A stretch of DNA of 64,000 bases from Candidatus Limnocylindrales bacterium (lineage in GTDB: Bacteria; Moduliflexota; Moduliflexia; Moduliflexales; JAUQPW01), in NCBI GenBank assembly GCA_035559535.1, contig DATMBG010000051.1, forward strand, positions 434,001 to 498,000, given 5' to 3'. Shown here one piece after another: positions 9,697 through 62,938 of this stretch; within the stretch, counting starts at the first letter, position 1; every line of letters begins with the position of its first letter. The translations under genes were made by a program, and so were the position numbers. Below the pieces are notes generated by a model. The model did no database searches. It saw only the letters and a program-made list of their open reading frames with translations, and was not told where the DNA came from.

Positions 9697-11214
9697 TTAT
9701 CCTTTCTTGAACAAGAGCAGAAGGGGTAGAGAGAGCAGGGTTAAGAGGACGATAAATCGGAAGGCGTCGATAAAAGATAACATCAAGGCCTGGTTATTAA
9801 CCGTATGATCGAGAAGTTTAAGAGCACCCATTCTAGCCGATACAAAGTCCTCTCCCCGGGCCAGTAAACCTTGTTCCAGGGTATTTAATCGCTGAACTGT
9901 CAGAGGATTAAGCAGATGGACATGTTGAATCAAGTTGGCCCGATGGACTGCTTCCCCTCGGGTTAATAAAGCGACCAGGATGGCAATGCCGAAACTCCCA
10001 CCGAGCTGTCGCAGAAGATTATAAATACCCGAGGCTGCGGGAATATCCTTTTTATTCAGGGTTCGCAAGGCAATAATATTCAGGGGGACAAAGGATAGTC
10101 CCAGGCCAATTCCCCGTATAACTTGGGTCCAGAACACCTCACTATGTTCCGTCTCCAGAGTATAATGGGACATCCGATAAATAGCCAGGGCAAAGAAGCT
10201 AATCCCCAGTCCTACCATATAACGGGGAGAAATTCTGTTGACCAATCTTCCTGAAATCGGCATGATCAGGGCAATGGTAGAGGCCGCATAAAAAACGACC
10301 TTGCCGGTCTCCAGGCTACTGTAATTGAGGAGGTTTTGAAAATATACCGAAATTAAAACATTGCTCCCATATAATCCAAAACCGATAATCATACTGAAGA
10401 TAGATCCAATACAAAGGGAGCGGTTTGCCATGACCCTGAGGTTAACGATGGGATTTTCTATCCTCAACTCCCACCAGACAAACAGGGGGAGTGTCAGCCC
10501 TGCTATGATGCTGAGCCAGATGATGAAGTTAGATTCAAACCAGTCTTCTCGCTCTCCCTTTTCCAAAAGGGTTTGTAAACATCCAATACCTACGGCCAGC
10601 AAAATAAATCCAATATAATCTACCCGGGTATTTACCGGTTTTAAGTAAGGAGGATCTTCGATAAAGAAAAACACCAGAAAAAAAGCCAAAATGCCGATAG
10701 GGAGGTTAATATAGAAAATCCAGGGCCAGTCGTAGTTATCGGTAATCCATCCTCCCAGGGTCGGACCCAGGGTCGGACCTACCATCATACCCAACCCAAA
10801 AATGGATGTTGCCGTACCCTGTTCTTCCGGTGGGAACGTTTCCATGAGGATAGCCTGGGAAGTAGGAACGAGGGCACCTCCTCCGATTCCCTGAATAATT
10901 CGGGCAAAGACAAGGAAATAGAGGTTTTGAACAAAACCACAGAAAAATGAAGCTATGGTAAAGATGGCAATGGAAACGAGGAAATAGCGTTTTCGACCGA
11001 ATTGAATACTCAACCAGCCGGAAAGGGGAATAATAATCACATTGGCAACGATGTATCCGGTGACCATGAGGGTTATTTCATCCAGGGTGGCCCCTAAATT
11101 GCCCATCATATCCGGCAGAGCCACGTTAACAATACTGGCATCGATGATTTCCATCATCGTCCCTAACATGACGGCCAGGGATATAATCCATTTATGTTTT
11201 ACAGATCCGCTCAT
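9697..11214 (-). CDS. DHA2-type drug/H+ antiporter (EmrB/QacA-like MFS), copy 2
   Basis: The 505-residue protein has about 14 membrane segments and the DHA2 landmarks: motif D1 (MMEIIDASIVNVALP), motif A (SGWLSIQFGRKRYFL) and motif C (GPTLGPTLGGWI). It would export hydrophobic compounds across the inner membrane using the proton gradient. It lies two bases downstream of a close paralog, and the two share most of their sequence, including the C-terminal LLARGEDxVSA segment. That indicates a tandem duplication. No HlyD/EmrA adaptor or TolC gene is adjacent, so the periplasmic partner must be encoded elsewhere or be absent. Confidence 0.9.
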   Translation of the reverse strand: MSGSVKHKWIISLAVMLGTMMEIIDASIVNVALPDMMGNLGATLDEITLMVTGYIVANVIIIPLSGWLSIQFGRKRYFLVSIAIFTIASFFCGFVQNLYFLVFARIIQGIGGGALVPTSQAILMETFPPEEQGTATSIFGLGMMVGPTLGPTLGGWITDNYDWPWIFYINLPIGILAFFLVFFFIEDPPYLKPVNTRVDYIGFILLAVGIGCLQTLLEKGEREDWFESNFIIWLSIIAGLTLPLFVWWELRIENPIVNLRVMANRSLCIGSIFSMIIGFGLYGSNVLISVYFQNLLNYSSLETGKVVFYAASTIALIMPISGRLVNRISPRYMVGLGISFFALAIYRMSHYTLETEHSEVFWTQVIRGIGLGLSFVPLNIIALRTLNKKDIPAASGIYNLLRQLGGSFGIAILVALLTRGEAVHRANLIQHVHLLNPLTVQRLNTLEQGLLARGEDFVSARMGALKLLDHTVNNQALMLSFIDAFRFIVLLTLLSLPLLLLFKKG

Positions 11215-11216
11215 AC

Positions 11217-12734
11217 TTACCTTTTTTTGAATAAAAATAAAAGGGGTAAGGACAACAAGATCAGAGTGACAAGGAACTGGAAGCTGTCTACAAAAGATAA
11301 CATAAGTGCCTGGATATGAACGGTCTGATCCAGGAGTTTCAGGGCTCCCAGTTTAGCAGAGACCAAATCTTCTCCCCGGGCCAGCAACCCTTGTTCTAAG
11401 GTATCGAGTCGTTGAACGACCAGGGGATTGAGTGTATGGATATGCTGAATGAGATTTACCCGATGCATGGCCTCTCCCCGGGTAAGTAGTGCCACCAAAA
11501 TGGCGATTCCAAAACTACCCCCCAATTGACGCATCAAATTATAAATCCCTGAGGCCGATGGAATATCTTTTTTATCCAGGGTTTTCAAAGCAATGACATT
11601 CAGAGGAGCCACAGACAACCCAAGGCCGATTCCTCGAATGATCTGATTCCAGAATACTTCCTCATATCTGGTCTCCAGGGTAAAGTGGGACATACGATAA
11701 ATGGCCAGAGCAAAGAAGCCTACCCCGGTACCTACCAGATACCGGGGAGAAATCTTATTAAGCAACTTCCCAGAAATAGGCATTACGACAGCAATAGCTG
11801 CTGCCGAGTAGAAGAAAAATTTACCGGTTTCCCAACTGGTATAGTGGAGAAGATTCTGAAAATAGACAGAGATTAATACCAGGCTTCCATATAATCCAAA
11901 CCCTATGATTGTTGTAAAGATCGTTCCAACCCAAAGGGAACGGTTGGACAGTACACGCAGGTTGACAACCGGGTGATCTGTTTTAAGCTCTCGTAAAATA
12001 AATAGGGGTAAAGTTATCATTACTGCGAGGCTCAGCCAGGTAATAAGTTTAGATTCAAACCAATCGGCCCGTTCTCCTTTCTGTAAAACGGTTTGCAGAC
12101 ATCCAATTCCTATAGCCAATAAGATAAATCCCATGTAATCGATACGAGAGCCAGCAGGTTTTAAGTAAGGGGGATCTTCGATGAAGAACAAAACCAGGAA
12201 AAAGGCTAGAATTCCCAGGGGAACATTGATGTAAAAACTCCAGGACCAGTTGTAATTATCGGTTACCCAGCCGGAGATGATGGAACCCAGGGACGGGCAG
12301 ACCATCATCCCAAATCCAAAAATAGACATGGCGGTCCCCTGCTCTTCCGGGGGGAAGGTTTCCATAAGGACAGCTTGAGAGGTAGGAACCAGGGCACCTC
12401 CTCCAATTCCTTGAAGAATCCTTATTAAAATAAGGAGATAAAGATTATGGACAAAACTGCATAAAACCGACGCTATGGTAAAAAGTGAAATGGAAACCAG
12501 GAAGTAGCGCTTACGACCAAACCGCATGCTCAGCCAACCAGAAATGGGAACAATAGTTACATTGGCTACCATATAACCGGTCACCAGCCAGGTAACCTCA
12601 TCCAGATTTGCCCCCAAACTCCCCATCATGTTGGGAAGAGCAATATTGATAATACTGGAGTCAATGACTTCCATCATCGGCCCCAGCATAACGGCGAGGG
12701 AAATGACCCATTTATGTTTAATCGGCTCCTTCAA
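11217..12734 (-). CDS. DHA2-type drug/H+ antiporter (EmrB/QacA-like MFS), copy 1
   Basis: This protein has the same length and topology as its downstream paralog, with MMEVIDSSIINIALP, SGWLSMRFGRKRYFL and a motif C region changed to CPSLGSIISGWV. The altered motif C (GPTLGP to CPSLGS) may mean a different substrate range or poorer antiport. Its ATG overlaps the stop of the XerD-like recombinase gene by four bases (12731-12734), so the recombinase and both exporters form one leftward transcription unit. Confidence 0.9.
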   Translation of the reverse strand: MKEPIKHKWVISLAVMLGPMMEVIDSSIINIALPNMMGSLGANLDEVTWLVTGYMVANVTIVPISGWLSMRFGRKRYFLVSISLFTIASVLCSFVHNLYLLILIRILQGIGGGALVPTSQAVLMETFPPEEQGTAMSIFGFGMMVCPSLGSIISGWVTDNYNWSWSFYINVPLGILAFFLVLFFIEDPPYLKPAGSRIDYMGFILLAIGIGCLQTVLQKGERADWFESKLITWLSLAVMITLPLFILRELKTDHPVVNLRVLSNRSLWVGTIFTTIIGFGLYGSLVLISVYFQNLLHYTSWETGKFFFYSAAAIAVVMPISGKLLNKISPRYLVGTGVGFFALAIYRMSHFTLETRYEEVFWNQIIRGIGLGLSVAPLNVIALKTLDKKDIPSASGIYNLMRQLGGSFGIAILVALLTRGEAMHRVNLIQHIHTLNPLVVQRLDTLEQGLLARGEDLVSAKLGALKLLDQTVHIQALMLSFVDSFQFLVTLILLSLPLLFLFKKR

Positions 12735-13700: not shown

Positions 13701-13835
13701 GTATCCATTTAGTAGGTGGAAAAAGAAGTACCCTCTGCCCCTCCAGGGGGGATTCAGCAGCAGCAACCCTATGTCAGTCCCTCCTGGAGGGGGGGGTGTT
13801 CAGACAGAAAAAGTGACACCTACTAAATTGGTATA
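13701..13835. mobile_element. MITE-like element, copy 1
   Basis: The element is bounded by inverted ends TTTAGTAGGTG (13708-13718) and CACCTACTAAA (13817-13827), with flanking GTATCC and GGTATA words. Inner arms CTCCAGGGGG (13741-13750) and CCCTCCTGGAG enclose a core of about 29 bp starting GATTCAGCAGC. There is no ORF. Copy 2 is at 53771-53916 and a decayed copy 3 at 60847-61020. This matches a non-autonomous inverted-repeat element; its mobiliser is not identified here. Confidence 0.7.
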
Positions 13836-20524: not shown

Positions 20525-22234
20525 TTAAAAGAGAAAGTATCGCTGAGCCATGGGGAGTACTGAAGCCGGTTCGCATTTCAAGAGTATCCCGTCTGCCCGA
20601 ACTTCGTAGGTTTCCGGATCAACCTCCATTTTCGGAAGATAGGCATTGAGTTTCATATCTTTTTTTCCGATATTACGGCAATTTTTAACCGGTAGAAGGG
20701 GACGTTCGTGTTTAAACGAGATTCCCTTCTTCAGAGATATTTCCGATACGAAGCTATAAGCCGTACTTGCCGGAGCCTTTCCGAAGGAGCCAAACATGGG
20801 GCGATAGATAACCGGTTGGGGAGTTGGTATGGAAGCGTTGGGATCACCCATGGCATTGGCTGCGATGAATCCCCCTTTGAGGATAATTTCCGGTTTTACT
20901 CCGAAGAACGCCGGTTTCCAAAGTACCAAATCGGCTATTTTCCCTATTTCGATAGAACCCACATAACTGGAAATACCGTGGGTAATAGCCGGATTAATGG
21001 TGTATTTAGCTATGTATCGTTTCACTCTGAAGTTATCATTATCTCCTGTTTCCTCGGGGAGACGTCCTCGCTGTCGTTTCATCTTATCGGCCGTCTGCCA
21101 GGTTCGAATAATAACTTCTCCTACTCGACCCATAGCCTGGGAATCTGAACTCATCATGCTAAAGGCCCCCAGGTCGTGAAGAATATCTTCGGCAGCAATG
21201 GTTTCTGCCCGAATCCGGGATTCGGCAAACGCCACATCTTCAGGAATTTTAGGATCTAGATGATGACACACCATCATCATATCCAGATGTTCTTCTACAG
21301 TGTTAACCGTAAAAGGACGGGTGGGATTGGTTGAAGAGGGAAGGACGTTGGCTTCCCCGCAAACTTTGATGATATCCGGTGCGTGCCCCCCGCCTGCCCC
21401 TTCCGTATGATAGGTATGGATCGTCCGACCTTTAAAAGCGGCAATGGAATCTTCAACAAATCCCGATTCGTTCAGGGTGTCGGTGTGAATGGCAATTTGT
21501 ACATCGTAATCCTCTGCCACCGAGAGGGCACAATCAATGGTAGCCGGGGTGGTCCCCCAGTCCTCATGAAGTTTCAATCCAATAGCTCCTGCTTCAATCT
21601 GTTCAATAAGAGGTTTGGGAAGGGCCGAATTCCCTTTTCCTAAGAACCCAAAGTTCATGGGAAAACCTTCTACAGCTTCCAACATCCGGTGAATATTCCA
21701 GGCTCCGGGGGAACAGGTGGTTGCGTTGGTTCCCGTAGCAGGCCCCGTACCGCCTCCGACCATGGTTGTAATACCGGCATATAAGGCTTCCCAGATCTGC
21801 TGCGGACAGATAAAATGGATATGGGAATCAATACCCCCCGGGGTAACGATCAAGCCTTCCCCGGCGATCACCTCGGTAGAAGGCCCTACCACCATGGAAG
21901 GATCCACCCCGTTCATGACCCCCGGATTCCCTCCTTTGCCAATACCCCAAATACGACCATCTCGAATTCCAATATCTGCCTTTACAATTCCCCAGTAATC
22001 CAGGATGATGGCATTGGTAATAATCAAATCTAAGGCCCCGTCGGCCCGTGTATGCTGTGCCGACTGGCCCAGATTATCCCGAAGGACTTTACCACCCCCA
22101 AAGACACATTCGTCTCCATAATGGGTATAATCCTTTTCAATCTCAATGATCAATTCGGTATCGGCCAGTCGAACTTTATCTCCTGTGGTAGGACCAAACA
22201 AATTCGCATAGGTTCTTCTAGGTATTCTTAACAT
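20525..22234 (-). CDS. ureC: Urease alpha subunit (catalytic)
   Basis: The 569-residue protein contains the complete urease active site: [10 protein letters not shown] (two nickel His), [10 protein letters not shown] with the carbamylated Lys, the [13 protein letters not shown] His, the [14 protein letters not shown] loop, the MVCHHL mobile-flap region, and the Asp ligand in [10 protein letters not shown]. It hydrolyses urea to ammonia and carbamate in the cytoplasm. Its start overlaps the end of ureB by 17 bases. Length is normal. Confidence 0.98.
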
Positions 22235-22601
22235 AGGATTCTCCCCTTTTTAGAGCTATGGCCTTCTTCTCCTCTAAATTGCCTCCAACTAAACCGTTCA
22301 ACCCATAGATAGTGCGGCTTCCTCCAATTTCTACCAGCTCGACCCTTTTCTGATCTCCGGGCTCAAATCTAACCGCCGTACCTGCGGGGATATTCAACCG
22401 CATACCATAAGCTTTCTCTCGATCAAATTGTAAAAACCGGTTCACTTCAAAGAAGTGATAATGAGAACCTACCTGAATAGGCCGATCTCCGGTGTTGGTA
22501 ACAACCAGCTCGATGACCTTCCGACTGACATTTGCAAGAATATCTTCTTCTTTGAGAATATATTCACCTGGAATCATCTGATTCGAAGCGTGAAAACTCA
22601 A
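22218..22601 (-). CDS. ureB: Urease beta subunit
   Basis: The 127-residue protein starts with the [18 protein letters not shown] type beginning and contains the hallmark [20 protein letters not shown] segment, followed by [20 protein letters not shown]. It is a separate polypeptide from UreA, as in most bacteria. It overlaps ureC by 17 bases and follows ureA after 61 bases. Confidence 0.98.
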
Positions 22602-22662
22602 AGATACAGGAACTTTCTGCCCTCGTATCTTCCTGCCTCCACACTTCCGGGTTTTTGTCCTT

Positions 22663-22968
22663 CTAGGATCTTATCGGGTCGTGGATCGTAACCAACTTCG
22701 TCCCATCGGGAAACGTCCCTTCTACTTGAATTTCTGTAATCATCTCCGGAACTCCCTCCATTACATCGTTCCGGGTGAGGATAGTCGCCCCGTAAGCCAT
22801 AAGCTCGGTAACGGATTTTCCGTCCCGAATACCCTCCAGGATCTCAGAGGTAATCAAAGCAACGGCTTCCGGGTAATTAAGCTTGAGTCCTCGTGCTCGC
22901 CGCTTTCTGGCCAACTCACCGGCCAGAAATATCAAGAGTTTTTCTTGCTCTCGTTCGGTTAAATACAT
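22663..22968 (-). CDS. ureA: Urease gamma subunit
   Basis: The 101-residue protein shows the family sequence [31 protein letters not shown] and [20 protein letters not shown]. It is the first gene of the leftward ureABC-E-F set. A sigma-54 promoter match lies about 240 bases upstream, leaving a long untranslated leader that contains a TTCTCCCT/AGGGAGAA hairpin but no T-run. Confidence 0.98.
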
Positions 22969-23222: not shown

Positions 23223-23669
23223 TTGTCTGGTTAAAATTTAATTACGACGGAGTAGTGGGTTGATAAAAATTTTGATGATTTTTTAATCACCTTCTTCTAG
23301 ATCTGCTGGGAAATAAAAGCTAAGAGGATAAGGTAAAATATAGAAAGAGAAAGTATTACACAAACTGCCTATAACTTAGTAAATAGATGCCTAAACTTTA
23401 ATCAGATCTGACATTTGGATATGAGCCCCCCCATCCTAATTTTCCCTCCACCTATTTCCCTTGAGCTTGGGACAGGCCATGGCATGGGGTAAACGGCATA
23501 CCTATCAAGCTAAGAAGGGGAAAAGCCTTATTTTTGGTCTGAACACCCCCCCTCGAGGGGGAAGGGGGGGTGTTTCCCCACACGCGCCAGGATAAGGCTT
23601 AGCTGAACCTCCTGCGTGTCCCTGGTTGCAGAAAAGATGTTTGTCGAAACTAGAGGTTAACCCAGAAGA

Positions 23670-23697
23670 GTAGGGGCGTACGGCCGTACGCCCCTAC
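23670..23697. repeat. Perfect 28-bp palindrome (GTAGGGGCGTACGG plus complement)
   Basis: This is the most regular member of the palindrome family in the window. It lies 220 bases upstream of the Omp85 barrel gene in a region otherwise without genes. Confidence 0.85.
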
Positions 23698-23804
23698 TTT
23701 TTACTTATAAAACTTGCCAAAAAATAAAGTTGCTTTATACTTTATAACTTATAAAGGAAAGAGATGTATCCAAATTTCTTTTAGTACATCCTGATCGTGA
23801 TCTT

Positions 23805-23916: not shown

Positions 23917-25206
23917 ATGATACAAAAGCTCTTTCTCATCATTCTTCTACTTATCCCGGGTGGAGTTTTAAGTGCCTCAGAGGAAGGCCCGGGCAGTCGA
24001 ACCGAACAGCTAGAACAACAGCGTCTTCAAAAGCTTCAAAAAATCGAGCCTTATCGTCAGACAGGATTGGAAAGGGATTTCCTTTGGGTAGAACAAAATC
24101 TCGACAAACTCTTACATCTTAACTACAAAGGATTCTACCCTCAAGCCGGAAGTATTAGTACAGGATCTGGTATCTCCCTGGGGGTTCGTTATTGGAAACC
24201 CGATTTGGGCGATTCATCCCTTGACCTTCAACTCTCGGCAGCTGGCTCATTGCATGGTTATCAAGAATATGCCTTTCAATTTGGAAAGATTCCACAAGCG
24301 GAGCCCGGACTTCTTTTGGAGTCTATTCGCTCCGAGCGTATCTACCAATTGGGAGATATTCCGATAAAACAACGAGGTTCCTTTTATTACGTGGACCTTC
24401 GTTATCGGGATTTTCCCCAAGAGGACTTTTTCGGTATTGGGCCCCAATCCAGAGAAGAAGATCGGTCGAATTTCAGGCTCAAGAACACTTCCTATGATGC
24501 CGTTATAGGATATAGATTTTCTCGATGGCTTCGAGTAGGGACCCGGTTAGGGTTTCAACAATTCGATATCGGTGGCGGGACCGATGATCGTTTTCCGGAT
24601 ACCCAGGCTTTATTCAACGAGACTTCGGCGCCGGGATTGACAGAGCAACCAGATTTTTTTCTCTTGAGACCCTTTGTACTCTTTGATTACCGGGATGTAT
24701 CCGGGAATCCTCATAAAGGGGGTTTGGTAGGTTTTTCATTTACTCGATTTGATGATGTGGATAAAAGTCAATTTGACTTTAACCGTTTTATCTTCGAAAC
24801 CCGGCAATTCCTGCCATTATTTTCAAGATCCCAGATACTGGCTTTACGTTTCTTCACGTCCTTGAGCGATGCGGACAAGGGGAGCCAGGTTCCCTTCTAT
24901 CTTCAAGAAACGCTCGGTGGAGGTGATACGCTTCGGGGTTTTGCTACCTTCCGATTTCAAGATAACGACCTGTTGTACCTTTCGGCAGAATATCGCTTTG
25001 AGGCTGCCTCAGCTTTAGAACTTGCCCTCTTTTATGATACGGGAAAAGTCTTTCCCGACCGTTCAGATTTTAATTTCAAGGACTTAGAGAACAGCTACGG
25101 TTTTGGAATCAGAATTAAGGCCCCTTCGGCAGTCATCTTCAGATTTGATGTAGGTCATAGCGGCGAGGGCACTGAGTTTCATTTTAAATTCGGATCGTCG
25201 TTCTAA
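23917..25206 (+). CDS. POTRA-less Omp85/BamA-type outer-membrane barrel (copy A)
   Basis: The 429-residue protein has a signal peptide (about residues 1-19, cleavage near LSA-SEE), a short Gln/Leu-rich region, and then a beta-barrel of the BamA/TamA/bacterial-surface-antigen family. The C-terminal half holds the conserved YLQETLGGGDTLRGF motif, where LRGF corresponds to the VRGF/Y loop of Omp85. Repeated barrel strands follow, and the protein ends in Phe as outer-membrane proteins do. There are no POTRA repeats, so it is unlikely to be the essential BamA. It is followed by the exported kinase-like gene, and the same pair recurs at 55.9 kb, so the two proteins probably work together. What the pore moves or inserts is unknown. 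Confidence 0.8.
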   Translation: MIQKLFLIILLLIPGGVLSASEEGPGSRTEQLEQQRLQKLQKIEPYRQTGLERDFLWVEQNLDKLLHLNYKGFYPQAGSISTGSGISLGVRYWKPDLGDSSLDLQLSAAGSLHGYQEYAFQFGKIPQAEPGLLLESIRSERIYQLGDIPIKQRGSFYYVDLRYRDFPQEDFFGIGPQSREEDRSNFRLKNTSYDAVIGYRFSRWLRVGTRLGFQQFDIGGGTDDRFPDTQALFNETSAPGLTEQPDFFLLRPFVLFDYRDVSGNPHKGGLVGFSFTRFDDVDKSQFDFNRFIFETRQFLPLFSRSQILALRFFTSLSDADKGSQVPFYLQETLGGGDTLRGFATFRFQDNDLLYLSAEYRFEAASALELALFYDTGKVFPDRSDFNFKDLENSYGFGIRIKAPSAVIFRFDVGHSGEGTEFHFKFGSSF

Positions 25207-25275
25207 ACTCTTAGAATGTTTTAGATCACCTCACAAAGGAAAATGAGGTGACTTCAGACTTTTGTATGGATAACC

Positions 25276-27012
25276 ATGGTAAAGAATACAAAGAATAAAA
25301 AATGGTTCGAACGACCTTTCAAGGTCATCAGTTTGATATTATTGTTGGGTACCATGGGCCATCCGTGGGCCATCGCTAAAAGTCAGAACCAACCGGCCAC
25401 ATATCTTTCCCCTCAGCTCAAGGGAGACAGGCAACCTTCAACAACCGATAAAGGCCCAAAATTCTTACCGGATGATCCCATCTGGGTAGATCCCGATCGA
25501 TTTTCCATCCCTAAGCCCCGGCAAATTGAGTTAAGCCAGGTCTATGACTTCCTGGAGAACACCTTTGCAGACCCAGGGGGTAGCTTTAACCGGCGGGCTC
25601 AAAATATTAATACCTTGGGAGAGGTCCCTGATTCCAGTTGGTTTACCAACCGAATTGGACTTCATCCCATGACCGTGGAGCAATTGGTTCGGGGTCCCAA
25701 CCGGGGGGATGGACCTGACAGGTCGCAACCCTGGACGATTATTAAAGCTAAATCCGAAGGAATTACACCCGGGTTTGTAATCCGAGATGGACGAGGAGAT
25801 ATCTACTTTATCAAGTTCGATCCTTTACAATATCCCCAGATGGCAACCTCTACCGAGGTAATCAGCACCAAGTTTTTCTATGCCTTTGGATATAACGTGC
25901 CCGAAAACTATCTGGCCTTTCTGCAACCAGATCAACTTCAAATCGATCCCGAAGCCGTGGTTACCGGGGAAGATGGCAAGAAAAGAAAGATGACCCTGGA
26001 GGATGTCGTAGAGCTTCTCAAGAAGGTTCCTAAACGTCCAGATGGAACCATTCAAGTTGTTGCAAGCCTTAAACTTCCTGGAGAGCCGTTAGGGCCTTTT
26101 AAATATTATGGAACACGAAGTGATGACCCCAACGATATTTTCCCCCATGAAGATCGGCGCGAGTTACGGGGACTACGCGTCTTTGCTGCCTGGTTGAATC
26201 ACAACGACTCCCGCAGTATTAACTCTCTGGATATGTACGTCACCGAGGAAGGACGGAGTTATGTTAAACATTACCTCATCGATTTTGGCGCCACGCTGGG
26301 TAGTGCCTCTGTAAAACCCAATGCACGTCGTGAAGGTTTTGCCTATCTCCTGGAATGGGACCCTATATGGAAGTCTGCTTTGACGTTAGGATTTAAAGGT
26401 CGTCCCTGGCAGCATATCAAATATCCCAATTATCCCGAGATAGGAAGATTCGAATCTTCCTTCTTCAGACCGGAGAGTTGGAAACCCAACTATCCCAATC
26501 CTGCATTCATTCGGATGCAGAACGAAGATGCCTTTTGGGCAACCCGTACCGTCATGCATTTCAATGATGAAGCCATCCGGGCCATTGTGAAAACCGGACA
26601 AATCTCCAATCCAGAAGCCGAGAACTACCTGATTGAAACCCTCCTTCGAAGAAGAGATAAGATTATTCAGTACTACTTGAGTCAGATTAATCCCCTGGAT
26701 GATTTTCAACTAAACGACGAGACCCGAACTTTAAACTTCAAAAACCTGGGAGTAGAGGCTAAGCTGGCTCCGGTGGAAGCTTATGAGTATCAATGGTTCC
26801 GATTCGATAATCAACGAGGCTCATCGGAACCCTTAGGTCCCCCTCAATCGCTATCTTCTCCTTCTTTACCTCTTCCACAGGATGGTTCTCCCTATTGGAT
26901 GGTAAGGATACGAACGATAAGTAAAAACCAGGTAAACTGGAAGAAGAAGGTAGAAGTGTTTATACGAAACGGTTCACATAGAACCGTTGTAGGCATTGAG
27001 AGAGAGAATTAA
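25276..27012 (+). CDS. Exported protein with kinase-like motifs (copy A), conserved hypothetical
   Basis: After a signal/anchor segment (about residues 15-35) the 578-residue protein shows motifs in the order of the protein-kinase/HipA/PI3K superfamily. A beta-hairpin GFVIRDGRGDIYFIKFD has a Lys at 180, and a helix Glu follows at 194 (ATSTEVIS). A catalytic-loop-like H309-x-D311-x4-N316 occurs in AWLNHNDSRSIN, and a DFG at 336-338 in YLIDFGATLG. Other landmarks are NTLGEVPDSSWFTNRIG, FGYNVPENY and YYGTRSDDPNDI. I know similar proteins only as hypotheticals in Acidobacteriota and relatives. The kinase reading is inference from motif order. Its neighbours are the barrel upstream and a nucleotide carrier downstream. 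Confidence 0.6.
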   Translation: MVKNTKNKKWFERPFKVISLILLLGTMGHPWAIAKSQNQPATYLSPQLKGDRQPSTTDKGPKFLPDDPIWVDPDRFSIPKPRQIELSQVYDFLENTFADPGGSFNRRAQNINTLGEVPDSSWFTNRIGLHPMTVEQLVRGPNRGDGPDRSQPWTIIKAKSEGITPGFVIRDGRGDIYFIKFDPLQYPQMATSTEVISTKFFYAFGYNVPENYLAFLQPDQLQIDPEAVVTGEDGKKRKMTLEDVVELLKKVPKRPDGTIQVVASLKLPGEPLGPFKYYGTRSDDPNDIFPHEDRRELRGLRVFAAWLNHNDSRSINSLDMYVTEEGRSYVKHYLIDFGATLGSASVKPNARREGFAYLLEWDPIWKSALTLGFKGRPWQHIKYPNYPEIGRFESSFFRPESWKPNYPNPAFIRMQNEDAFWATRTVMHFNDEAIRAIVKTGQISNPEAENYLIETLLRRRDKIIQYYLSQINPLDDFQLNDETRTLNFKNLGVEAKLAPVEAYEYQWFRFDNQRGSSEPLGPPQSLSSPSLPLPQDGSPYWMVRIRTISKNQVNWKKKVEVFIRNGSHRTVVGIEREN

Positions 27013-27129
27013 AGTAGGAAAACGGAGACTGCCCTGGATTTAACCAAAAGTCAGAGGAGAAACCCGTCTTCATTGATCCGATGTAAGGCCTATCCGGATC
27101 AAAGAAAACGGATTTCCGGGTAGGAGTTT

Positions 27130-28482
27130 ATGAGGACTGTAGAAGTCAGATCCAGAAAGAGCGTGCTAGAGCAGTTCCTTGGGCTCTTCACCGAAGTTCG
27201 AGCCGGGGAAGGACCGACCGTCCTTCTATTGACCATAAACCTGTTTCTTATTCTGACTGCTTATTACGTCCTTAAACCTGTACGTGAAGCCCTGATCCTT
27301 GCGGGAGGAGGTGCCGAGATAAAAAGCTATGCGGCGGCGGGGCAGGCTCTCTTACTTCTCGGTGCAGTACCCCTCTATTCTGCACTGGCAAGCCGTTTCA
27401 CAAGACGCCGACTTATCAATACTGTTACGGTTTTCTTCACTGCTTGTCTGGTATTTTTCTACCTTCTCGCCCATCTTAATGTCCCCCTGGGAGTTGTGTT
27501 TTATTTGTGGATGGGAATCTTTAACCTGATGGTTATAGCTCAAATCTGGTCCTTTGCCAACGACCTTTATACTCCAGAAGAAGGAAAACGTCTCTTCCCT
27601 ATTGTAGCCTTTGGGGCTTCCTCAGGAGCTGTATTTGGAAGTTTTATTACCAGCCATCTTATCGGCCTGCTCGGAGTGTATCAACTTCTTTTGGTCGGTG
27701 CAGCTATTTTGATTCTAAGCCTTCTCATTACAAATTTCATCGATCAGCGAGAACAATACCAAGTTAAAATAAAGGCGGGACCGAAACCTGCCTTGTCACC
27801 AGGAGAAGCGCCCATTGGCAAAGGAGGCGGCTTTCAACTGGTTATTAAGAGTAAGTACCTGCTTTTAATCGCCTGCCTTATGTTATTTTTGAACTGGGTA
27901 AATACCAACGGAGAATATATCCTGGGAAAAACGGTATCAAAGGCGGCCATTGAGGCAGTAGCTTCAGGAAACTCGGGAGGGCTCTCCGAAAAAGAATTTA
28001 TAGGAAAGTTTTACTCGGACTTTTTTACCTGGGTAAACATGTTGGGACTCCTGGCCCAGCTTTTCCTGGTTTCTCGTATCCTCAAATACCTGGGCATACA
28101 GATTGCGATCCTTATTCTACCAATAATTGCCCTGAGTGGTTATGCCTTACTTGCCTTCTATCCCATCTTGGGTGTAGTCCGTTGGGTAAAGATTGCAGAG
28201 AATGCAACCGACTATAGTCTACAAAATACCGTTCGCAACGCTTTGTTTTTACCCACTACACGAGAAGAAAAATACAAAGCTAAACAGGCTGTTGACACCT
28301 TCTTTGTGCGGGCCGGAGATGTTCTCTCCGCAGGATTGGTCTATGTCGGGGTCAATAAGCTGGCCTTCAACACCAAAAATTTTGCCCTGGTAAACCTTGG
28401 GCTTGTGGTCATCTGGTTCATCCTTGCAATTTTTATCGGCAAAAAGAACCAACAATTAACGACTCCTGCCTCTCAAAGCTAA
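27130..28482 (+). CDS. ATP/ADP-translocase-like (TLC/NTT family) membrane carrier
   Basis: The 450-residue protein has about 12 membrane segments. It begins with a soluble stretch (FLGLFTEVRAGEGPTVLL) and YYVLKPVREALIL, a segment with the conserved KPVRE-type charged motif of nucleotide transporters. It continues with IAQIWSFANDLYTPEEGKRLFP and NATDYSLQNTVRNALFLPT, both typical of bacterial relatives of the plastid and rickettsial ATP/ADP translocases. These free-living members are often annotated as MFS or NTP/NDP exchange transporters. It lies 118 bases after the kinase-like gene on the same strand. A nucleotide carrier here could supply or recover nucleotides across the inner membrane. Confidence 0.75.
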   Translation: MRTVEVRSRKSVLEQFLGLFTEVRAGEGPTVLLLTINLFLILTAYYVLKPVREALILAGGGAEIKSYAAAGQALLLLGAVPLYSALASRFTRRRLINTVTVFFTACLVFFYLLAHLNVPLGVVFYLWMGIFNLMVIAQIWSFANDLYTPEEGKRLFPIVAFGASSGAVFGSFITSHLIGLLGVYQLLLVGAAILILSLLITNFIDQREQYQVKIKAGPKPALSPGEAPIGKGGGFQLVIKSKYLLLIACLMLFLNWVNTNGEYILGKTVSKAAIEAVASGNSGGLSEKEFIGKFYSDFFTWVNMLGLLAQLFLVSRILKYLGIQIAILILPIIALSGYALLAFYPILGVVRWVKIAENATDYSLQNTVRNALFLPTTREEKYKAKQAVDTFFVRAGDVLSAGLVYVGVNKLAFNTKNFALVNLGLVVIWFILAIFIGKKNQQLTTPASQS

Positions 28483-28972: not shown

Positions 28973-29287
28973 ATGAGCAAGTTATATACATCAGAAGAAT
29001 TTCACTTGAAATTAGAGGGACTTCATGTGAAGTGTCCTTATTGTAGTTCAGATGCAATTTATCGATATGGAAAGGCACGAACAGGAAAACAGCGCTTCCT
29101 ATGCCTCTTATGTGGAAAGCAATTTACCTTTGGAGCCAAAAAATCTGAGGTAAGGAATAGACCTACCTGTCCTACCTGTGGAAAGTTCATGCATCTCTAT
29201 AAGAGGGAAGAAAAAACCCTTCGATTCAGGTGTTCAAATTATCCAGAGTGCAGAACGTACCTGAAAACCCTAATGAAGGAGGGATAA
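28973..29287 (+). CDS. Double zinc-ribbon protein, IS1/InsA-like and topoisomerase-like fingers
   Basis: The 104-residue protein contains two four-Cys zinc ribbons. The first (CPYC...CLLC, residues about 20-46) resembles the N-terminal finger of InsA-type transposase proteins, with the RYGKARTGKQRFLC sequence. The second (CPTC...CSNYPEC, about 65-95) resembles the C-terminal fingers of topoisomerase I. No transposase catalytic domain follows, so it is more likely a small DNA-binding protein. It ends one base before the HMA-domain gene begins and sits behind a Pho box, so the two genes are probably one phosphate-responsive unit. Confidence 0.65.
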   Translation: MSKLYTSEEFHLKLEGLHVKCPYCSSDAIYRYGKARTGKQRFLCLLCGKQFTFGAKKSEVRNRPTCPTCGKFMHLYKREEKTLRFRCSNYPECRTYLKTLMKEG

Positions 29288-29288
29288 A

Positions 29289-29660
29289 ATGAGCTATTAT
29301 ATTCATAACATTCCAGGAAGACTACGCATCAAGACTCCTGTTGCTAAAAGCAGCTCTCAGCAGGCTAAAGCCATCCAAAGAATTCTTCACTCGATACCTG
29401 GCATTCTTTCAACCCTTGTAAACCCTCTTACAGGGAGTATTGTTATTCACTATGATCCTGAGGTAGTGAACTCGGAAGAAATCTTGAATACCCTGAATCA
29501 GCAAGATTATTTTGACTGGTCCCGGGCGGTAACAAATGATCAATATATACGGGATATAGTCGCAAAAATAGGTAAGGTAATTTGGAAAGCTTTTTTTGGA
29601 ACCTTGGTAGAAGAAGCCTTAGAAGGCTCTTCTCTCTCCTTCATAAAGGTTCTTATATAA
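29289..29660 (+). CDS. HMA-like domain protein without CxxC
   Basis: The 123-residue protein has a ferredoxin-like HMA fold pattern: YYIHNIPGRLRIKTP, then IPGILSTLVNPLTGSIVIHYDP, then a helix. The family's metal-binding CxxC is missing; there is no Cys at all. The C-terminal 40 residues contain a weakly hydrophobic helix. It is closely similar in pattern to the protein at 35116-35619 and to the N-terminus of the P-type ATPase at 31116-34292. Such CxxC-less HMA domains accompany a subgroup of P-type ATPases and DUF5132 proteins, possibly as assembly or regulatory modules. Confidence 0.7.
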   Translation: MSYYIHNIPGRLRIKTPVAKSSSQQAKAIQRILHSIPGILSTLVNPLTGSIVIHYDPEVVNSEEILNTLNQQDYFDWSRAVTNDQYIRDIVAKIGKVIWKAFFGTLVEEALEGSSLSFIKVLI

Positions 29661-53770: not shown

Positions 53771-53916
53771 CAGCTTAGTAGGTGTCACTTTTCTGCCTGA
53801 ACACCCCCCCCTTAACCCCCCTCCAGGGGGATTCAGCAGCGGCAATCCCACGTCAGTTCCCCCTGGAGGGGGGTTAAGGGGGGGTGTTTCTTTTTCCACC
53901 TACTAAATTGATACAG
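53771..53916. mobile_element. MITE-like element, copy 2 (core inverted)
   Basis: The ends CTTAGTAGGTGTCAC (53774) and TCCACCTACTAAA (53895-53907) and inner arms CCCCTCCAGGGGG / CCCCCTGGAGGGG match copy 1, but in reverse orientation. The core of about 29 bp (53830-53858) keeps the same plus-strand orientation as in copy 1, so it is inverted relative to its own ends. Confidence 0.72.
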
Positions 53917-54104
53917 GTACCTGCTATTTTAGCTTCTTCTCTCTGGATATCCTGTCAGGAGAAAACTATCTGGAAATCTATTCTACTTCAGGAAAACACC
54001 CTAGGCTCAATATTCCTCCCCGTCCACGGGGAGGGATGGAGTGGGGGTCTCCAGCCTTACGGACACAATTTGAAACGGGCTTACGGAACATGGCAATTCC
54101 GAAA

Positions 54105-54729
54105 CATGCCCAGACTGCTTATACAAAATGGCTGCGCCAGGATCTGGATTTTTGCCAGAAGTACCATTTCCCCCACACGTAGAGAGAGTCTTCCTCACTT
54201 TCTCCACAAATTACAGGAAAAGAAGCAAACCCAGGCGCAATAACAGCCGGCGTCCCATGCCATCTTGCTGGATTACGAGTGGGGGCACACGGCCGTGTGC
54301 CCCTACCGAGGAATCATCCCTTCGACCAGTTCAGGACCCCGCTCCTAAGGCTTTCTCTTCCTCCCACATCGCAAAAACATCCCTTCCACCCTTCCATAAG
54401 CCCCAGACCCTGCAAGCCCAGGACCCCGCAACGGGAGTTTCCTGGAAAACGGGTACACTTGGTTAGTCAACGAAATCTAGGTTGGGCATTATTCCCCGAA
54501 AACCTTAGAAACCTATACCCGATGGGTACGACACTTTCAAATTTTTACTCGAGGCAAGGATCTGCAATGGCTCTTTTCTACCGACAAACGAGGCGTTGGA
54601 CCTACCCTTGTCAGGGAATTCTTGAAGTTTTTGGCGGTGACCCGAAAGGTGTCGGCCTCAACCCAGAACCAGGCCTTTAAGGCAGTGTTATTTTTTATAA
54701 ACCTGTTCGGAATAAGGGGTTTGGGATAG
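54105..54729 (+). pseudogene. Tyrosine recombinase (integron-integrase-like) pseudogene, N-terminal part only
   Basis: From about 54105 the sequence reads AYTKWLRQDLDFCQKYHFPH, then after a frameshift ESLPHFLHKLQEKKQTQAQ. After an interrupted stretch it reads YSPKTLETYTRWVRHFQ, VREFLKFLAVTRKVSASTQN and QAFKAVLFFINLFG, then a stop at 54727. This is the N-terminal SAM-like region of integron-type or phage-type integrases (Phage_int_SAM_4). A palindromic repeat (54282-54303) interrupts the middle. The catalytic domain is missing altogether. Confidence 0.72.
54282..54303. repeat. Palindromic repeat inside the integrase pseudogene
   Basis: GGGGCACACGG plus its exact complement (22 bp), followed by TACC. 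It is a member of the palindrome family, lying within the broken recombinase gene. Confidence 0.75.
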
Positions 54730-54752
54730 TCAGCCAGAACCGTTTACTTACT

Positions 54753-55046
54753 TTATCCCAGGGGTGAAGTCGTTAAGAGGGTATTGAGGGTTTTAAAATA
54801 AACTTGCGATTTTCTGGCGTGGATCACCGGAATCCCTCGTCTTCTGGCTTCTGATTTAAGGCGATAGACCAGGGTGTGATTAACAAAATCACAAAGAAGA
54901 ATAATGACTTCAATTCCATCTGGAATTTTTTTTCGAACCTCCTCATGGCTCCGTCCCTTCCAATGAAGGATCTGCTTAATCCCTAAGTCCTGGAGATTCC
55001 TTGTAAGCGATCCCAGATGATCTGCTCCTACAACTAAAACCTTCAT
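54753..55046 (-). CDS. DUF2325 family protein
   Basis: The 97-residue protein is a compact alpha/beta domain: VLVVGADHLGSLTRNLQDLG, a segment IEVIILLCDFVNHTLVYRLK, and RRGIPVIHARKSQV. These match DUF2325, whose members are found alone or with nucleotide/iron-related proteins but have no settled function. It follows the pseudo-receiver gene on the same strand by 29 bases, so they may act together. Confidence 0.8.
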   Translation of the reverse strand: MKVLVVGADHLGSLTRNLQDLGIKQILHWKGRSHEEVRKKIPDGIEVIILLCDFVNHTLVYRLKSEARRRGIPVIHARKSQVYFKTLNTLLTTSPLG

Positions 55047-55075
55047 GTTGTTTCCTTTTCCGAAAACCTATCCCT

Positions 55076-55492
55076 CTACCTGTAAACCCAAAACGTAGGG
55101 GCGGACGGCCGTCCGCCCGTACATCGGATGGCTGCAAGGACTTGCTCCAACATAGATCTTTCTAAGGGTTTATCCAGGCAATCAAAGACTCCACAAACCT
55201 GGGCTTTAATAAATACCTCTGCCCCTACCTGTGGGGTGATGAGTACTACTTTGGCTTGAGATTCAAAACGTCGAACAAGATCTAAAATTTTCATTCCCTC
55301 AAACTCCGGAAATCCAAGCTCGCTGATAATTAAAGAGAAAGCCTCCTCCCTGAAAAGTTGTGCGGCTTCATACGCCCGCGCCACTCCTTTAACCTGATAG
55401 CCATGCTCATTCAGCATTTCTTCTAAAAATTTTCGATCGTCGGGATCGGAATTTATAACCAGGGCCTTACTTAACCCATTTGTTGGTTCCAT
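55076..55492 (-). CDS. Response-regulator-like pseudo-receiver, phospho-Asp replaced by Glu
   Basis: The 138-residue protein is a stand-alone receiver fold. The acidic pair (NSDPDD) and the conserved Lys (CLDKPLE) are kept. The phospho-acceptor position, normally D in a D-x-x-MP motif, is Glu (SELGFPEFEG), so normal phosphorylation is unlikely and a constitutively active-like state is possible. The final residues (CTGGRPSAPTFWVYR) are read from a perfect 28-bp palindrome, so the C-terminus has been replaced or extended by a repeat. It lies immediately upstream of the DUF2325 gene. Confidence 0.78.
   Translation of the reverse strand: MEPTNGLSKALVINSDPDDRKFLEEMLNEHGYQVKGVARAYEAAQLFREEAFSLIISELGFPEFEGMKILDLVRRFESQAKVVLITPQVGAEVFIKAQVCGVFDCLDKPLERSMLEQVLAAIRCTGGRPSAPTFWVYR
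55095..55122. repeat. 28-bp palindrome forming the 3' end of the pseudo-receiver gene
   Basis: GTAGGGGCGGACGG followed by CCGTCCGCCCGTAC is a near-perfect family member read in frame as the protein's C-terminal tail. Confidence 0.8.
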
Positions 55493-55887
55493 GATGTACC
55501 TCCCTACCTGATAAGGACAAGGGGTTTAAAGATATCCAAGATCGTTACCTCCAGAATACGCAAAGGTGGTACCATCCAGACCAAAGGAAAGGTTTTAAGG
55601 GATATTCTCTTTAAAAACAGATACTTAGAATGAAGATGCTCCTTCTAAGCAGTCTTCAAATACGAGTAGATTTTAGGCAAATCCCGGAAAAGGTGATTAA
55701 AATCCATACAATTGGATTAGTTTTTATGTAAAATATCCCTATTCAAAAACAAAACCCCCATAGACAAAAAACTTCTTTGTCTTTATTCTTTAAATAATGA
55801 AAAAGTAAACGGTCGTGTAAAACCTCTCCCTTTTAAGAGATGGGTTACTGTGTAGTCAGAGGAACCCGAAACAACAGAAAATGAAAT

Positions 55888-57195
55888 ATGAACCCAATAA
55901 CAAAAAGGATTGTTTTCCTCCTCTTTTTTGTAAATCTATTTTTTGTCCAAAACGAAGTTTTCAGCGCCTCCGAAGAAAGTTCCGAGCTGCAAACCGAAGC
56001 GGAGCGACAACGTCTTCAAAAGCTTCAAAACATCCAGCCTCCCAACCAGAGTGGCGTGGAACGAGGGCTTGTCTGGTTAGAAGGCTATTTTCTTGAAGGC
56101 ATACTTCCCAATTATAAAGGATTTACCCCTCAAGTAGGAACCATTACATCGGGTTCCAGCATCGCTTTTGGAGGACTTTACTGGAAGCCCAATATCGGCG
56201 GCTCGATCATTGACCTTCAAGTTTCTGGTGGCTATTCAATCTTGGGCTATCAGGAATACGAGTTGCAAATCGGAAGGGTTACCCAAAAACCGACCCTCTT
56301 TTTAGAATTCCCTCATTTTATCGGGGATATCTTCCAATTTGGTGATATTCGACAGGAGGATCGGGATTTTTTCCTTTACGCGGATCTGGATTATCGCAAT
56401 TTTCCTCAGCAAGATTTTTTTGGTATTGGTCCGAACTCCCTGGAAGACAATCGAACTGATTATAAACTGGAAGGAGCTACCTATGATGCCGTCGTAGGGT
56501 ATCAGTTTAACCGTTGGCTTCGTACCGGCCTCCGGGTGGGGTTTATACAGGTAAATATCGATCGGGGTACCGATGAGAGCATTCCAGCCACACAAGACGT
56601 ATTCAATGATATTTCAGCCCCGGGATTGGCCAAACAACCGGACTTTTTTCGCCTGAGTAGCTCTCTAATCTTTAACTATCGGGATGTACCGGGAAATCCT
56701 CACCGGGGTGGAGTCTTAGGGTTTATGTTTACCCGATATCAGGATCTTGATGAGGATCAATTCAGCTTCAATCGTTTCGCCTTTGATGCTCGACATTACT
56801 TACCTTTAGGGTCACCTGCCCGGGTTCTTGCTGTTCGATTCTTTACTTCCCTGGATGACACCGATGAAGGAAATCGGGTTCCTTTTTACCTCCAGGAAAC
56901 TTTAGGAGGAAGTAATACGCTGCAAGGCTTTCGTTCCTTTCGTTTTCAGGATACAAACTTGCTATACCTCGCCGCCGAATATCGATGGGAAGCCTTAGAT
57001 TATCTGGAATTTGCCCTTTTTTATGATACAGGTAAGGTTTTTGCCGACCGGTCTGATTTTAATCTTACCGATTTAGAAGATAGTTACGGCTTTGGAGTCC
57101 GATTTAAAGCACCGAGTTCGGTCATCTTCCGGTTTGATATAGGTCACAGCGTCGAAGGTACTCAACTTTATTTTGCCTTTGGATCCACGTTTTAA
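55888..57195 (+). CDS. POTRA-less Omp85/BamA-type outer-membrane barrel (copy B)
   Basis: The 435-residue protein parallels copy A along its whole length. It has a signal peptide (residues about 1-27), the QRLQKLQ-rich start, NYKGFTPQVG, the FYLQETLGGSNTLQGF motif (here LQGF rather than LRGF, so the conserved Arg of the Omp85 motif is lost), and the FALFYDTGKVF and GFGVRFKAPSSVIFRFDIGH strands, ending in Phe. The kinase-like gene follows 62 bases later. The arrangement repeats that at 23.9 kb. Confidence 0.8.
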   Translation: MNPITKRIVFLLFFVNLFFVQNEVFSASEESSELQTEAERQRLQKLQNIQPPNQSGVERGLVWLEGYFLEGILPNYKGFTPQVGTITSGSSIAFGGLYWKPNIGGSIIDLQVSGGYSILGYQEYELQIGRVTQKPTLFLEFPHFIGDIFQFGDIRQEDRDFFLYADLDYRNFPQQDFFGIGPNSLEDNRTDYKLEGATYDAVVGYQFNRWLRTGLRVGFIQVNIDRGTDESIPATQDVFNDISAPGLAKQPDFFRLSSSLIFNYRDVPGNPHRGGVLGFMFTRYQDLDEDQFSFNRFAFDARHYLPLGSPARVLAVRFFTSLDDTDEGNRVPFYLQETLGGSNTLQGFRSFRFQDTNLLYLAAEYRWEALDYLEFALFYDTGKVFADRSDFNLTDLEDSYGFGVRFKAPSSVIFRFDIGHSVEGTQLYFAFGSTF

Positions 57196-57257
57196 ATCCT
57201 GCTTAAGGCCGGTTGTCATTTGCAAGATCTCATGTACAACCGATACTAGGTAAAAAT

Positions 57258-59018
57258 ATGAAAGATTTACTAAAGCAACTTTCCAAAATACTCTGGCTTG
57301 GACTCTTGTTATCCGTAATCAACCTTTCGGGAGCAATTGCCTGGGACAACCAACAACAATCCAACGATCCTTCAACCCGACCTGAGACAAGGAACGTAGA
57401 ACCGGTCGCGGATCAAAAACCCAAATTCTTTCCCTATGATCCTGTATGGGTAGATCGAGACCAGATTTCCATTCCCAAGCCAAAACCTATTGAGTTGAGT
57501 AAGATATATGATTTTGCAGAGAACACCTTTAGTAAGCCTGGAGATCCAACGATTCGGCGGGCTCAGAACATCAACACCCTGGGAGAAGTTCCCGATTCCA
57601 GTTGGTTTACCAACCGAATTGGACTCCACCCCATGACTTTAGAACAACTCGCTCGGGGCCCCAATCGAAGCGATGGACCGGATATGTCCGGCCCCTGGAC
57701 CATCATCTCAGCCAAAACTCAGGGCGTTACCCCGGGATTCGTCATGAAGGATAGCCGAGGAGATACTTATTTTATCAAGTTAGATCCCAAGAAATACCCC
57801 CAAATGGCAACCTCAGCCGAGGTCATAAGCACGAAGTTTTTCTACGCCTTTGGATATAATGTTCCGGAGAACTATCTCGCCTTCTTCCGACCGGAGCAAC
57901 TTAAAATTGGACCGGAAGCTAAAGTTCCCGGTAGGGATGGTAAAAAACGACCGATGACCAAAGCCGATATCGATGCGATCCTGTGTAAAGTGCCGAAGCG
58001 TTCCGATGGAACCATTCAGGCTCTTGCCAGTCTCAAGCTTCCAGGAGAACCCCTGGGTCCTTTTAAATATTATGGAACCCGAAGTGACGACCCCAACGAT
58101 ATATTTCCCCATGAGAACCGTCGTGAGTTACGAGGATTGCAAGTTTTTTTCTCCTGGTTGAACGATAATGATTCCGATGCGACCAATACTTTAGATATGT
58201 ATGTAACGGAAGCAGGTCGTAGCTACGTTAAGCATTACCTCATCGATTTTGGAACCACCCTGGGGAGTGCGGCCATTGCTCCCCATGGTCCCCGGGAAGG
58301 GAATGCCTACTACTTTGAAGGGAAGCCCACTCTGAAATCGGCCCTTACTTTAGGCCTCTGGGACCCCCCTTGGAGACACATCCAATATCAAGAATATCCG
58401 GAAATCGGACGGTTTGAAGCTTCTTATTTCCGACCCGAACACTGGAAACCAGATTATCCCAATCCTGCCGGCATTCGGATGCAGAATGAAGATGCCTTCT
58501 GGGCTACCCGGACGGTAATGCGTTTTACCGATGAGATGGTCCGGGCCATTGTAAAAACCGGTCAAATTTCTAACCCGGAAGCCGAGAATTTTCTCGTAAA
58601 AACTCTCCTTCAAAGACGAGATAAGATCCTTCATTATTATCTAAACCAGATTAACCCCTTAGATGATTTTCGGTTAGTCATCCCAGAAACAACTCCCCAA
58701 ACTACTCCGGAACAGCCTGAGGAAGCTACTCCTTTCCTGAATTTCAAAAATCTAGGAGTAGAAGCCAGAATTTCTACGGCTAATTCATACGAGTATCAAT
58801 GGTTCCGATTTAATAACCAAGACGGTTCAACAGAACCTTTGACCGAGATTCAATCCTCTGCCTCTCCCTCAATCCCTGTACCCCAGGATGCTTCTCCTTA
58901 TCTCATGGTAAGAATCCGAACCCTCAGTCCGAATCAGGAAAACTGGAAGAAAAAAGTAGAAGTTTTTATCCGTAACATTCCGGAAAAATCCGTCGTAGGA
59001 ATTGAAAGGGAAAACTAA
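57258..59018 (+). CDS. Exported protein with kinase-like motifs (copy B), catalytic His changed to Asp
   Basis: The 586-residue protein is a paralog of copy A. A signal peptide (about residues 1-28) comes first. Motifs are K174 in YFIKLD, E188 in ATSAEVIS, a loop D303-x-D305-x4-N310 (WLNDNDSDATN) where copy A has His, and D330-F-G in YLIDFGTTLG. I chose the ATG at 57258; the longer frame opens with TTG. No nucleotide-carrier gene follows this copy; the convergent pgl gene is next. A Pro/Thr/Glu-rich insertion near residue 480 is absent from copy A. Confidence 0.6.
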   Translation: MKDLLKQLSKILWLGLLLSVINLSGAIAWDNQQQSNDPSTRPETRNVEPVADQKPKFFPYDPVWVDRDQISIPKPKPIELSKIYDFAENTFSKPGDPTIRRAQNINTLGEVPDSSWFTNRIGLHPMTLEQLARGPNRSDGPDMSGPWTIISAKTQGVTPGFVMKDSRGDTYFIKLDPKKYPQMATSAEVISTKFFYAFGYNVPENYLAFFRPEQLKIGPEAKVPGRDGKKRPMTKADIDAILCKVPKRSDGTIQALASLKLPGEPLGPFKYYGTRSDDPNDIFPHENRRELRGLQVFFSWLNDNDSDATNTLDMYVTEAGRSYVKHYLIDFGTTLGSAAIAPHGPREGNAYYFEGKPTLKSALTLGLWDPPWRHIQYQEYPEIGRFEASYFRPEHWKPDYPNPAGIRMQNEDAFWATRTVMRFTDEMVRAIVKTGQISNPEAENFLVKTLLQRRDKILHYYLNQINPLDDFRLVIPETTPQTTPEQPEEATPFLNFKNLGVEARISTANSYEYQWFRFNNQDGSTEPLTEIQSSASPSIPVPQDASPYLMVRIRTLSPNQENWKKKVEVFIRNIPEKSVVGIEREN

Positions 59019-59047
59019 AATTTATTTTGGTCAAGCCGATGAAATTT

Positions 59048-59818: not shown

Positions 59819-59887
59819 ACTTCTCCTTTATTCCCTAATAATCTTCCTCTTTCCCTCCTCTTTTGGAGTGCTTATAGATTTTTTCCT

Positions 59888-60688: not shown

Positions 60689-60846
60689 CTACGGTCACTC
60701 TACGGTCACTTAAAATTTACTCCTTCTCACCTGTTTACCTCAAGCCTAAGACCTATAAAATCTACCTTTGCTCTTTTTATACCTCTTCACCGCACAACGG
60801 ATAGGGTAGGAAGAAGTAACGGTAACCCTTTAACCGGTGTCATTTT

Positions 60847-61020
60847 TTCTGTCTAAACATCCCCCATCCATACGCGCCGGGTTAAGCTGAAAAGCCCCGT
60901 TAAGGGCGAACCGTGGCTGGCACATATACCCTCAAGGGGGGACTGATGCGGGATTGTTCCTATTGAAGTCCCCCCTCCAGGCGGACCCGGCAGGTGATTC
61001 TTCTTCCATCTACTAAACGG
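60847..61020. mobile_element. MITE-like element, decayed copy 3
   Basis: The left end (TTCTGTCTAAACATCCCCC), right end (TTCTTCCATCTACTAAAC) and core (60941-60970, GACTGATGCGGGATTG) correspond to copies 1 and 2 with mutations and an insertion of about 70 bp on the left side. The core orientation relative to the ends agrees with copy 1 and is opposite to copy 2. Confidence 0.55.
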
Positions 61021-62927: not shown

Positions 62928-62938
62928 GTTTATTTTCT

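Follow-up and report, generated by a model that had tools for sequence, protein, structure and literature searches.

Can nucleotide-driven chemistry take place in the envelope of a bacterium, given that the periplasm is usually regarded as ATP-free? The question is raised by three genes in the 64,000-nucleotide stretch of DNA analysed here (the window), which encode an Omp85-type barrel (BAR1), a kinase-like protein predicted to be exported (KIN1) and a relative of the ATP/ADP translocases (TLC). All three open reading frames were recovered on the plus strand, exactly as laid out in a preliminary description of this DNA (Table 1). The intergenic gaps are 69 nt between BAR1 and KIN1 and 117 nt between KIN1 and TLC, and terminator-like signals between the three genes are not above the shuffled expectation. 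About 32 kb downstream lies a second BAR-KIN pair (55888-59018), which the preliminary description had missed and beside which no carrier gene is found.

Table 1. Coordinates of the genes and motifs in the window, with the basis of each assignment
Feature	Position	Strand	Basis
BAR1, POTRA-less Omp85-type outer-membrane barrel, 429 aa, signal peptide	23917..25206	+	PF01103, AlphaFold2 model, Foldseek
KIN1, predicted exported protein with modelled HipA/Fam20/PI3K-type kinase fold, 578 aa	25276..27012	+	AlphaFold2, Foldseek, hhalign, residue conservation
KIN1 predicted N-terminal signal sequence, hydrophobic core then AIA-K	25276..25380	+	Sequence reading, signal analysis
KIN1 K180 codon, end of N-lobe beta-3	25813..25815	+	Homologue alignment, AlphaFold2 model
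KIN1 E194 codon, in helix C (189-204)	25855..25857	+	Homologue alignment, AlphaFold2 model
KIN1 catalytic-loop segment D311-x4-N316, right after helix 295-307	26206..26223	+	Alignment, AlphaFold2 model, hhalign
KIN1 D336-F337-G338, DFG-type metal-binding motif, after a strand	26281..26289	+	Alignment, AlphaFold2 model, hhalign
TLC, multi-pass inner-membrane carrier, ATP/ADP translocase-like family, 450 aa	27130..28482	+	PF03219 1.7e-11; hydrophobic segments; KIN linkage
BAR2, second Omp85 barrel	55888..57195	+	PF01103 2.5e-15; 57% identical to BAR1
Second KIN copy, predicted exported, kinase-like, full catalytic set	57213..59018	+	About 70% identical to KIN1

BAR and KIN form one functional unit

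Matches in a profile search for KIN come from 65 of 396 Acidobacteriota genomes (a few of them only weak or fragmentary); a second phylum contributes 15 of 82 genomes, and the small phylum to which the window belongs one of four. About 60 genomic regions were fetched with their flanks. The BAR-KIN pair occurs in at least three bacterial phyla and is also present on named Acidobacteria contigs. Among the other loci, which come from Acidobacteriota and the second phylum, the gene immediately upstream of KIN, and on its strand, is BAR in all 63 cases with enough upstream sequence, at a median gap of about 36 nt. Within 16 genomes, barrel matches above about 150 bits adjoin a KIN with one exception, a same-genus genome (G001) in which a contig ends inside the BAR1 gene. 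The evolutionary distances of BAR and KIN follow each other closely in mirror trees (r 0.90; shuffled maximum 0.19). At the second locus of G001, probed by comparing L151 (G001:C80) with window positions 54049-63117, KIN copy 2 is cleanly deleted and BAR2 is broken too, being truncated and carrying a stop. Based on the invariant gene order, the barrel matches adjoining KIN, the correlated distances and this joint decay, BAR and KIN are one functional unit, and their linkage is obligate.

The system seems to be missing from G001, but at the first locus this reflects an assembly break inside BAR1, and only the second locus shows a true deletion. Large same-strand frames with the appearance of KIN-BAR fusions (e.g., at L086, L103 and L108) proved to be upstream over-extensions of high-GC frames, and clusters of antisense open reading frames in the neighbourhood survey were artefacts of opposite-strand coding. 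Three second-phylum loci have another Omp85 gene upstream of BAR-KIN (L116:4599-6296, L119:3949-5529 and L120:44-1630), with POTRA present in those of L116 and L120.

BAR1 is an Omp85-type barrel without POTRA domains

The preliminary description had called BAR1 a POTRA-less Omp85 barrel, and our analysis agrees. PF01103 matches in the Pfam scan at E 1.1e-17, and the AlphaFold2 model (pLDDT 90.6) contains 16 strands preceded by two N-terminal helices, its closest Foldseek structural matches being the BamA and TamA barrels. An L6-type LRGF motif is present, of which R340 and G341 are conserved at 90% or more. BAR1 thus has both the 16-strand C-terminal barrel and the L6 R-G-F/Y motif of the Omp85 superfamily, but not even one N-terminal POTRA domain is found by the Pfam scan or in the model.

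KIN1 has a predicted kinase fold with conserved catalytic residues

From the order of its motifs, KIN1 had been likened to kinases, and structure prediction followed by a fold search of this product now supports that assignment. The AlphaFold2 model, computed from an alignment of 67 sequences, reaches a pLDDT of 92 and a pTM of 0.89, with 500 of 578 residues at pLDDT of at least 90, and displays a two-lobe kinase fold of the HipA/PI3K/Fam20 branch. The best 50 Foldseek matches among 350,542 PDB chains all appear, going by their titles, to be kinases or pseudokinases, with no indication of an unrelated fold; Fam20C and Fam20A lead together with CtkA, and HipT, HipA, PI4KII-alpha, VPS34 and RIO2 are included. 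The best E-value is 1.7e-4, and the TM-scores of the top matches are low (0.25-0.56) because KIN has large insertions and additions as well as a mostly-beta C-terminal domain (about residues 474-578).

KIN belongs to no named Pfam or NCBIfam family, its sole trace there being a sub-threshold match to HipA_2 (PF20613), which for KIN1 amounts to 12.5 bits against a gathering score of 27 bits and among seven KIN homologues reaches a best E of 0.0076. Searches of PDB sequences with KIN or its profile returned chance matches only, so that a fold search was needed to recognise the kinase fold. Comparison of the KIN family with three HipA_2 kinases by hhalign gives E 1.1e-6 (91%), with K, E and DFG in register and the catalytic-loop part shifted by one residue; a control with the barrel profile gives E 0.14. 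According to the model and these comparisons, KIN is a protein of the HipA/Fam20/PI3K-type kinase fold.

The motif residues K180, E194, D311, N316 and DFG 336-338 occur precisely where first reported. Judged from secondary-structure positions in the model, the lysine, the glutamate, D-x4-N and the DFG aspartate fall on the right elements of a kinase in KIN1, as they do in 52 of 67 homologues. Among 68 homologues, which are 28-73% identical to KIN1, K180 is conserved in 58, D311 in 63, N316 in 66, D336 in 66 and G338 in 59; E194 is kept in 52 and replaced by Asp in 7 more, and H309 is less constant (53 of 68). Conservation at K180, E194, D311, N316 and D336 greatly exceeds the background level. 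The complete set (K, E/D, D, N, D) is intact in 52 of 67 homologues, and both KIN copies of the window possess it. Part of the set is missing in the other 15, which look degenerate. Among them is a clade in which Glu replaces K180, and two members of this clade (L101 and L127) have TLC directly downstream. Three very degenerate members (L089:1090-2886, L097:5203-7018 and L104:8545-9808) carry 400-600 extra C-terminal residues, and no Pfam match was found in the extensions of L089 and L104. Outside the kinase motifs, R281, D284, N286, D287, R295, R298, D418 and W421 are highly conserved and family-specific, and may form a docking face.

KIN carries export signals

Besides the signal sequence of KIN1, hydrophobic N-terminal signals are present in nearly all KIN homologues, with AxA-type ends in Acidobacteriota and a lipoprotein-type Cys in most members from the second phylum. 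The few homologues in which no signal was seen are mostly anchor failures of the detection, wrong starts or truncated frames. No further membrane segment was found in KIN1 beyond the N-terminal signal. The conserved signals and this topology suggest that KIN, whether soluble or lipid-anchored, most likely works outside the cytoplasm, in line with the export first proposed for it and without any sign of a cytoplasmic location.

TLC is a frequent but optional neighbour

The window TLC shares its family with the TLC/NTT ATP/ADP translocases above the Pfam cut-off (PF03219, 44.1 against a gathering score of 21 bits) but differs from the NTP/NDP exchangers, as it stays far under the cut-off of their model (TIGR00769, 45.2 against 387 bits). 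Of the nucleotide carrier claimed earlier, the family membership therefore holds, and the nucleotide role is a guess at the level of the family. Counted with a clean TLC model that replaced a looser first one, TLC occurs within 5 kb of KIN at 27 of 63 loci and directly after KIN in 10. Conversely, in 14 genomes, partly chosen after TLC had already been seen near KIN, 21 of 42 TLC genes are within 5 kb of KIN (16 on the same strand), with 0.19 expected under uniform placement; owing to that choice of genomes, the nominal probability of the excess is exaggerated. We considered TLC as a core part of the system and rejected this, since it is found at only 27 of the 63 loci and not at the second copy in the window. 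TLC is a frequent but optional neighbour of BAR-KIN, and the three-gene system of the preliminary description survives as its BAR-KIN unit, for which the conserved linkage does extend across genomes, without the carrier as a core member.

The slot beside KIN is filled by different TLC subfamilies. In the window, TLC groups with TLCs of the second phylum, while KIN groups with Acidobacteriota; their different affinities suggest that the TLC-KIN linkage seems to have arisen more than once. At L129:4465-6942, TLC and an Omp85 barrel share one uninterrupted frame of 825 aa, and the genes for KIN and PAP2 come next; as the barrel has an apparent signal peptide of its own at the junction, this fusion is possibly a lost stop codon.

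Phosphatases and a second kinase-like family near KIN

PAP2 phosphatases lie beside KIN in eight loci, and four loci encode, near KIN, a second exported protein that is small and weakly similar to PI3/PI4-kinases. In hhalign, the catalytic loop and DFG of this small PI4K-like family are in register with those of KIN, the match itself being not significant. With TLC and a tyrosine-phosphatase-like protein also among the neighbours, the gene content around KIN points towards phosphate chemistry in the envelope.

The second exported kinase-like family, of about 280 aa, is encoded at L105:5191-6132, L106:9558-10415, L108:5191-6036 and L124:8723-9562 and 11196-11993; it has weak PI3/PI4-kinase, HipA_2 and Fam20C matches and adjoins KIN and mostly PAP2. 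The DSP/tyrosine-phosphatase-like protein, also exported, directly follows barrel, KIN and TLC at L007:5576-6145.

Proposed mechanism and alternative explanations

As the most plausible reading, to which we assign a probability of about 0.52, KIN would be a kinase-type enzyme active at its own barrel within the envelope, and the carrier might deliver its nucleotide. BAR would be sited in the outer membrane as a POTRA-less Omp85 barrel, and exported KIN would probably dock on its periplasmic face, thereby filling the place taken in other Omp85 proteins by POTRA or enzyme domains. There, KIN would most likely move phosphate (or nucleotide) from ATP onto a substrate in the envelope, which may be a lipid, a glycan or a protein that BAR handles. 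Where linked, TLC may import ATP to the periplasm and return ADP, similar to the carriers on which the Fam20 kinases of the Golgi rely for their nucleotide supply, and PAP2 or DSP-type phosphatases may strip the phosphate at some loci. Several points argue against this mechanism: ATP is commonly believed not to occur in the periplasm, most loci have no TLC, the TLC that is present scores far below TIGR00769, the catalytic set is incomplete in 15 of 67 homologues, the TM-scores are low and the HipA_2 match is sub-threshold. A more specific version, possible but in our view doubtful, is a bacterial counterpart of secretory-pathway phosphorylation, in which a dedicated TLC brings ATP or another nucleotide into the periplasm and a Fam20/HipA-like KIN at the Omp85 barrel phosphorylates an outer-membrane lipid, glycan or protein. 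The BAR-KIN pair, often with an ATP/ADP-carrier relative, hints at phosphorylation-type chemistry where ATP is usually assumed to be absent. With KIN, BAR and the frequent TLC relative, the question of such nucleotide-driven chemistry in bacterial envelopes can be put to a direct test, and a group of POTRA-less Omp85 barrels thereby gains an obligate partner.

KIN could instead be the cargo of BAR, moved to the surface or into the medium by two-partner or patatin-type secretion and acting extracellularly. This would fit the obligate BAR-KIN order, as FhaC-type Omp85 barrels export a partner encoded alongside, and the signal peptide on KIN. However, BAR is devoid of POTRA domains, the substrate binders of two-partner secretion, the KIN model is compact and globular over its 500 of 578 confidently predicted residues rather than a TPS-type helix, and most second-phylum KIN members look like lipoproteins. 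In PlpD, moreover, the enzyme domain turned out to be periplasmic and stays beside its Omp85 barrel (PMC11116518), and we consider secretion of KIN somewhat unlikely. Degenerate KIN members still paired with BAR, and conserved residues outside the kinase motifs (R281 to W421) that may be a docking face, would suit a non-catalytic kinase-fold scaffold, in which KIN stands in for POTRA or plugs the barrel and the two proteins assemble or move components of the outer membrane; exported pseudokinases exist, e.g., Fam20A (PMC7948968). Yet the retention of K, E/D, D, N and D in 52 of 67 members of a strongly diverged family is difficult to account for unless KIN binds nucleotide or metal, and the linkage to ATP/ADP-carrier relatives and phosphatases likewise makes a purely structural role unlikely.

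A catalytic KIN need not be a kinase, since SelO and SidJ are kinase-fold enzymes with other chemistries. KIN could transfer AMP, glutamate, or phosphate from a non-ATP donor such as a lipid diphosphate, with PAP2 and TLC handling lipids, and in favour of this are the distance of the TLC relatives from proven nucleotide exchangers and the occurrence of PAP2 (lipid phosphatases or phosphotransferases) in the slot after KIN at several loci. As kinases use the D-x4-N and DFG residues for ATP-metal, we regard such chemistry as quite improbable and favour kinase-type catalysis at the barrel.

Comparison with known systems

Fam20C and Fam20A (PF06702) are the top PDB structural matches of KIN and share with it a kinase fold outside the cytosol as well as active and degenerate members side by side. 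KIN differs in being bacterial and barrel-paired and in its extra C-terminal mostly-beta domain, and as it has no Pfam match to Fam20C, the resemblance is structural only. With HipA, CtkA and HipA_2 (PF20613, PF07804), KIN has in common the kinase fold, the N-lobe K/E spacing, D-x4-N and DFG/DHG. In contrast to KIN, which is predicted to be exported, paired with BAR and below the Pfam cut-off, HipA proteins are cytoplasmic and mostly toxins acting with HipB; the cytoplasmic kinase and hipB gene of a HipA toxin-antitoxin system are not found here, where the neighbours are BAR, TLC and PAP2.

PlpD-type Omp85 proteins (type Vd) also combine an Omp85 barrel with a periplasmic enzyme domain (PMC11116518). 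PlpD is one polypeptide with patatin and POTRA, whereas BAR-KIN consists of two genes with a kinase fold and no POTRA, and the Pfam scan of BAR1 shows no patatin fused to POTRA and barrel. The layout of two-partner secretion, a TpsB with two POTRA domains and a large beta-helical TpsA, is also absent, as the barrel has no POTRA and its partner has the predicted kinase fold. By domain layout, BAR resembles the noNterm subfamily of Omp85 barrels, which lack any N-terminal domain and which, in the parts of Heinz and Lithgow 2014 (PMC4104836) concerned with them, form a class without assigned function and with no partner described, unlike BAR with its obligate partner gene. A search of the open-licence literature found no description of such a barrel and kinase-like pair.

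Origin and surroundings of the two copies in the window

Both KIN copies of the window are nested in the acidobacterial part of the tree (support 99/95 and 100/100), which suggests that KIN moved between phyla and was later duplicated locally. Upstream of the first pair, urease subunit genes occupy 20525-22968 on the minus strand. Between the TLC gene and the following opposite-strand genes, positions 28973-29660 encode a zinc-ribbon protein with an IS1-like N-terminal domain and then an HMA_2 domain protein. A short repeat, about 57 nt long and bounded by CCCTCCAGGGGG/CCCCTGGAGGGGG ends, is located at 13738-13794 and 53817-53873 of the window and also in G001, near window 23664-23704, and resembles a REP or MITE-like element.
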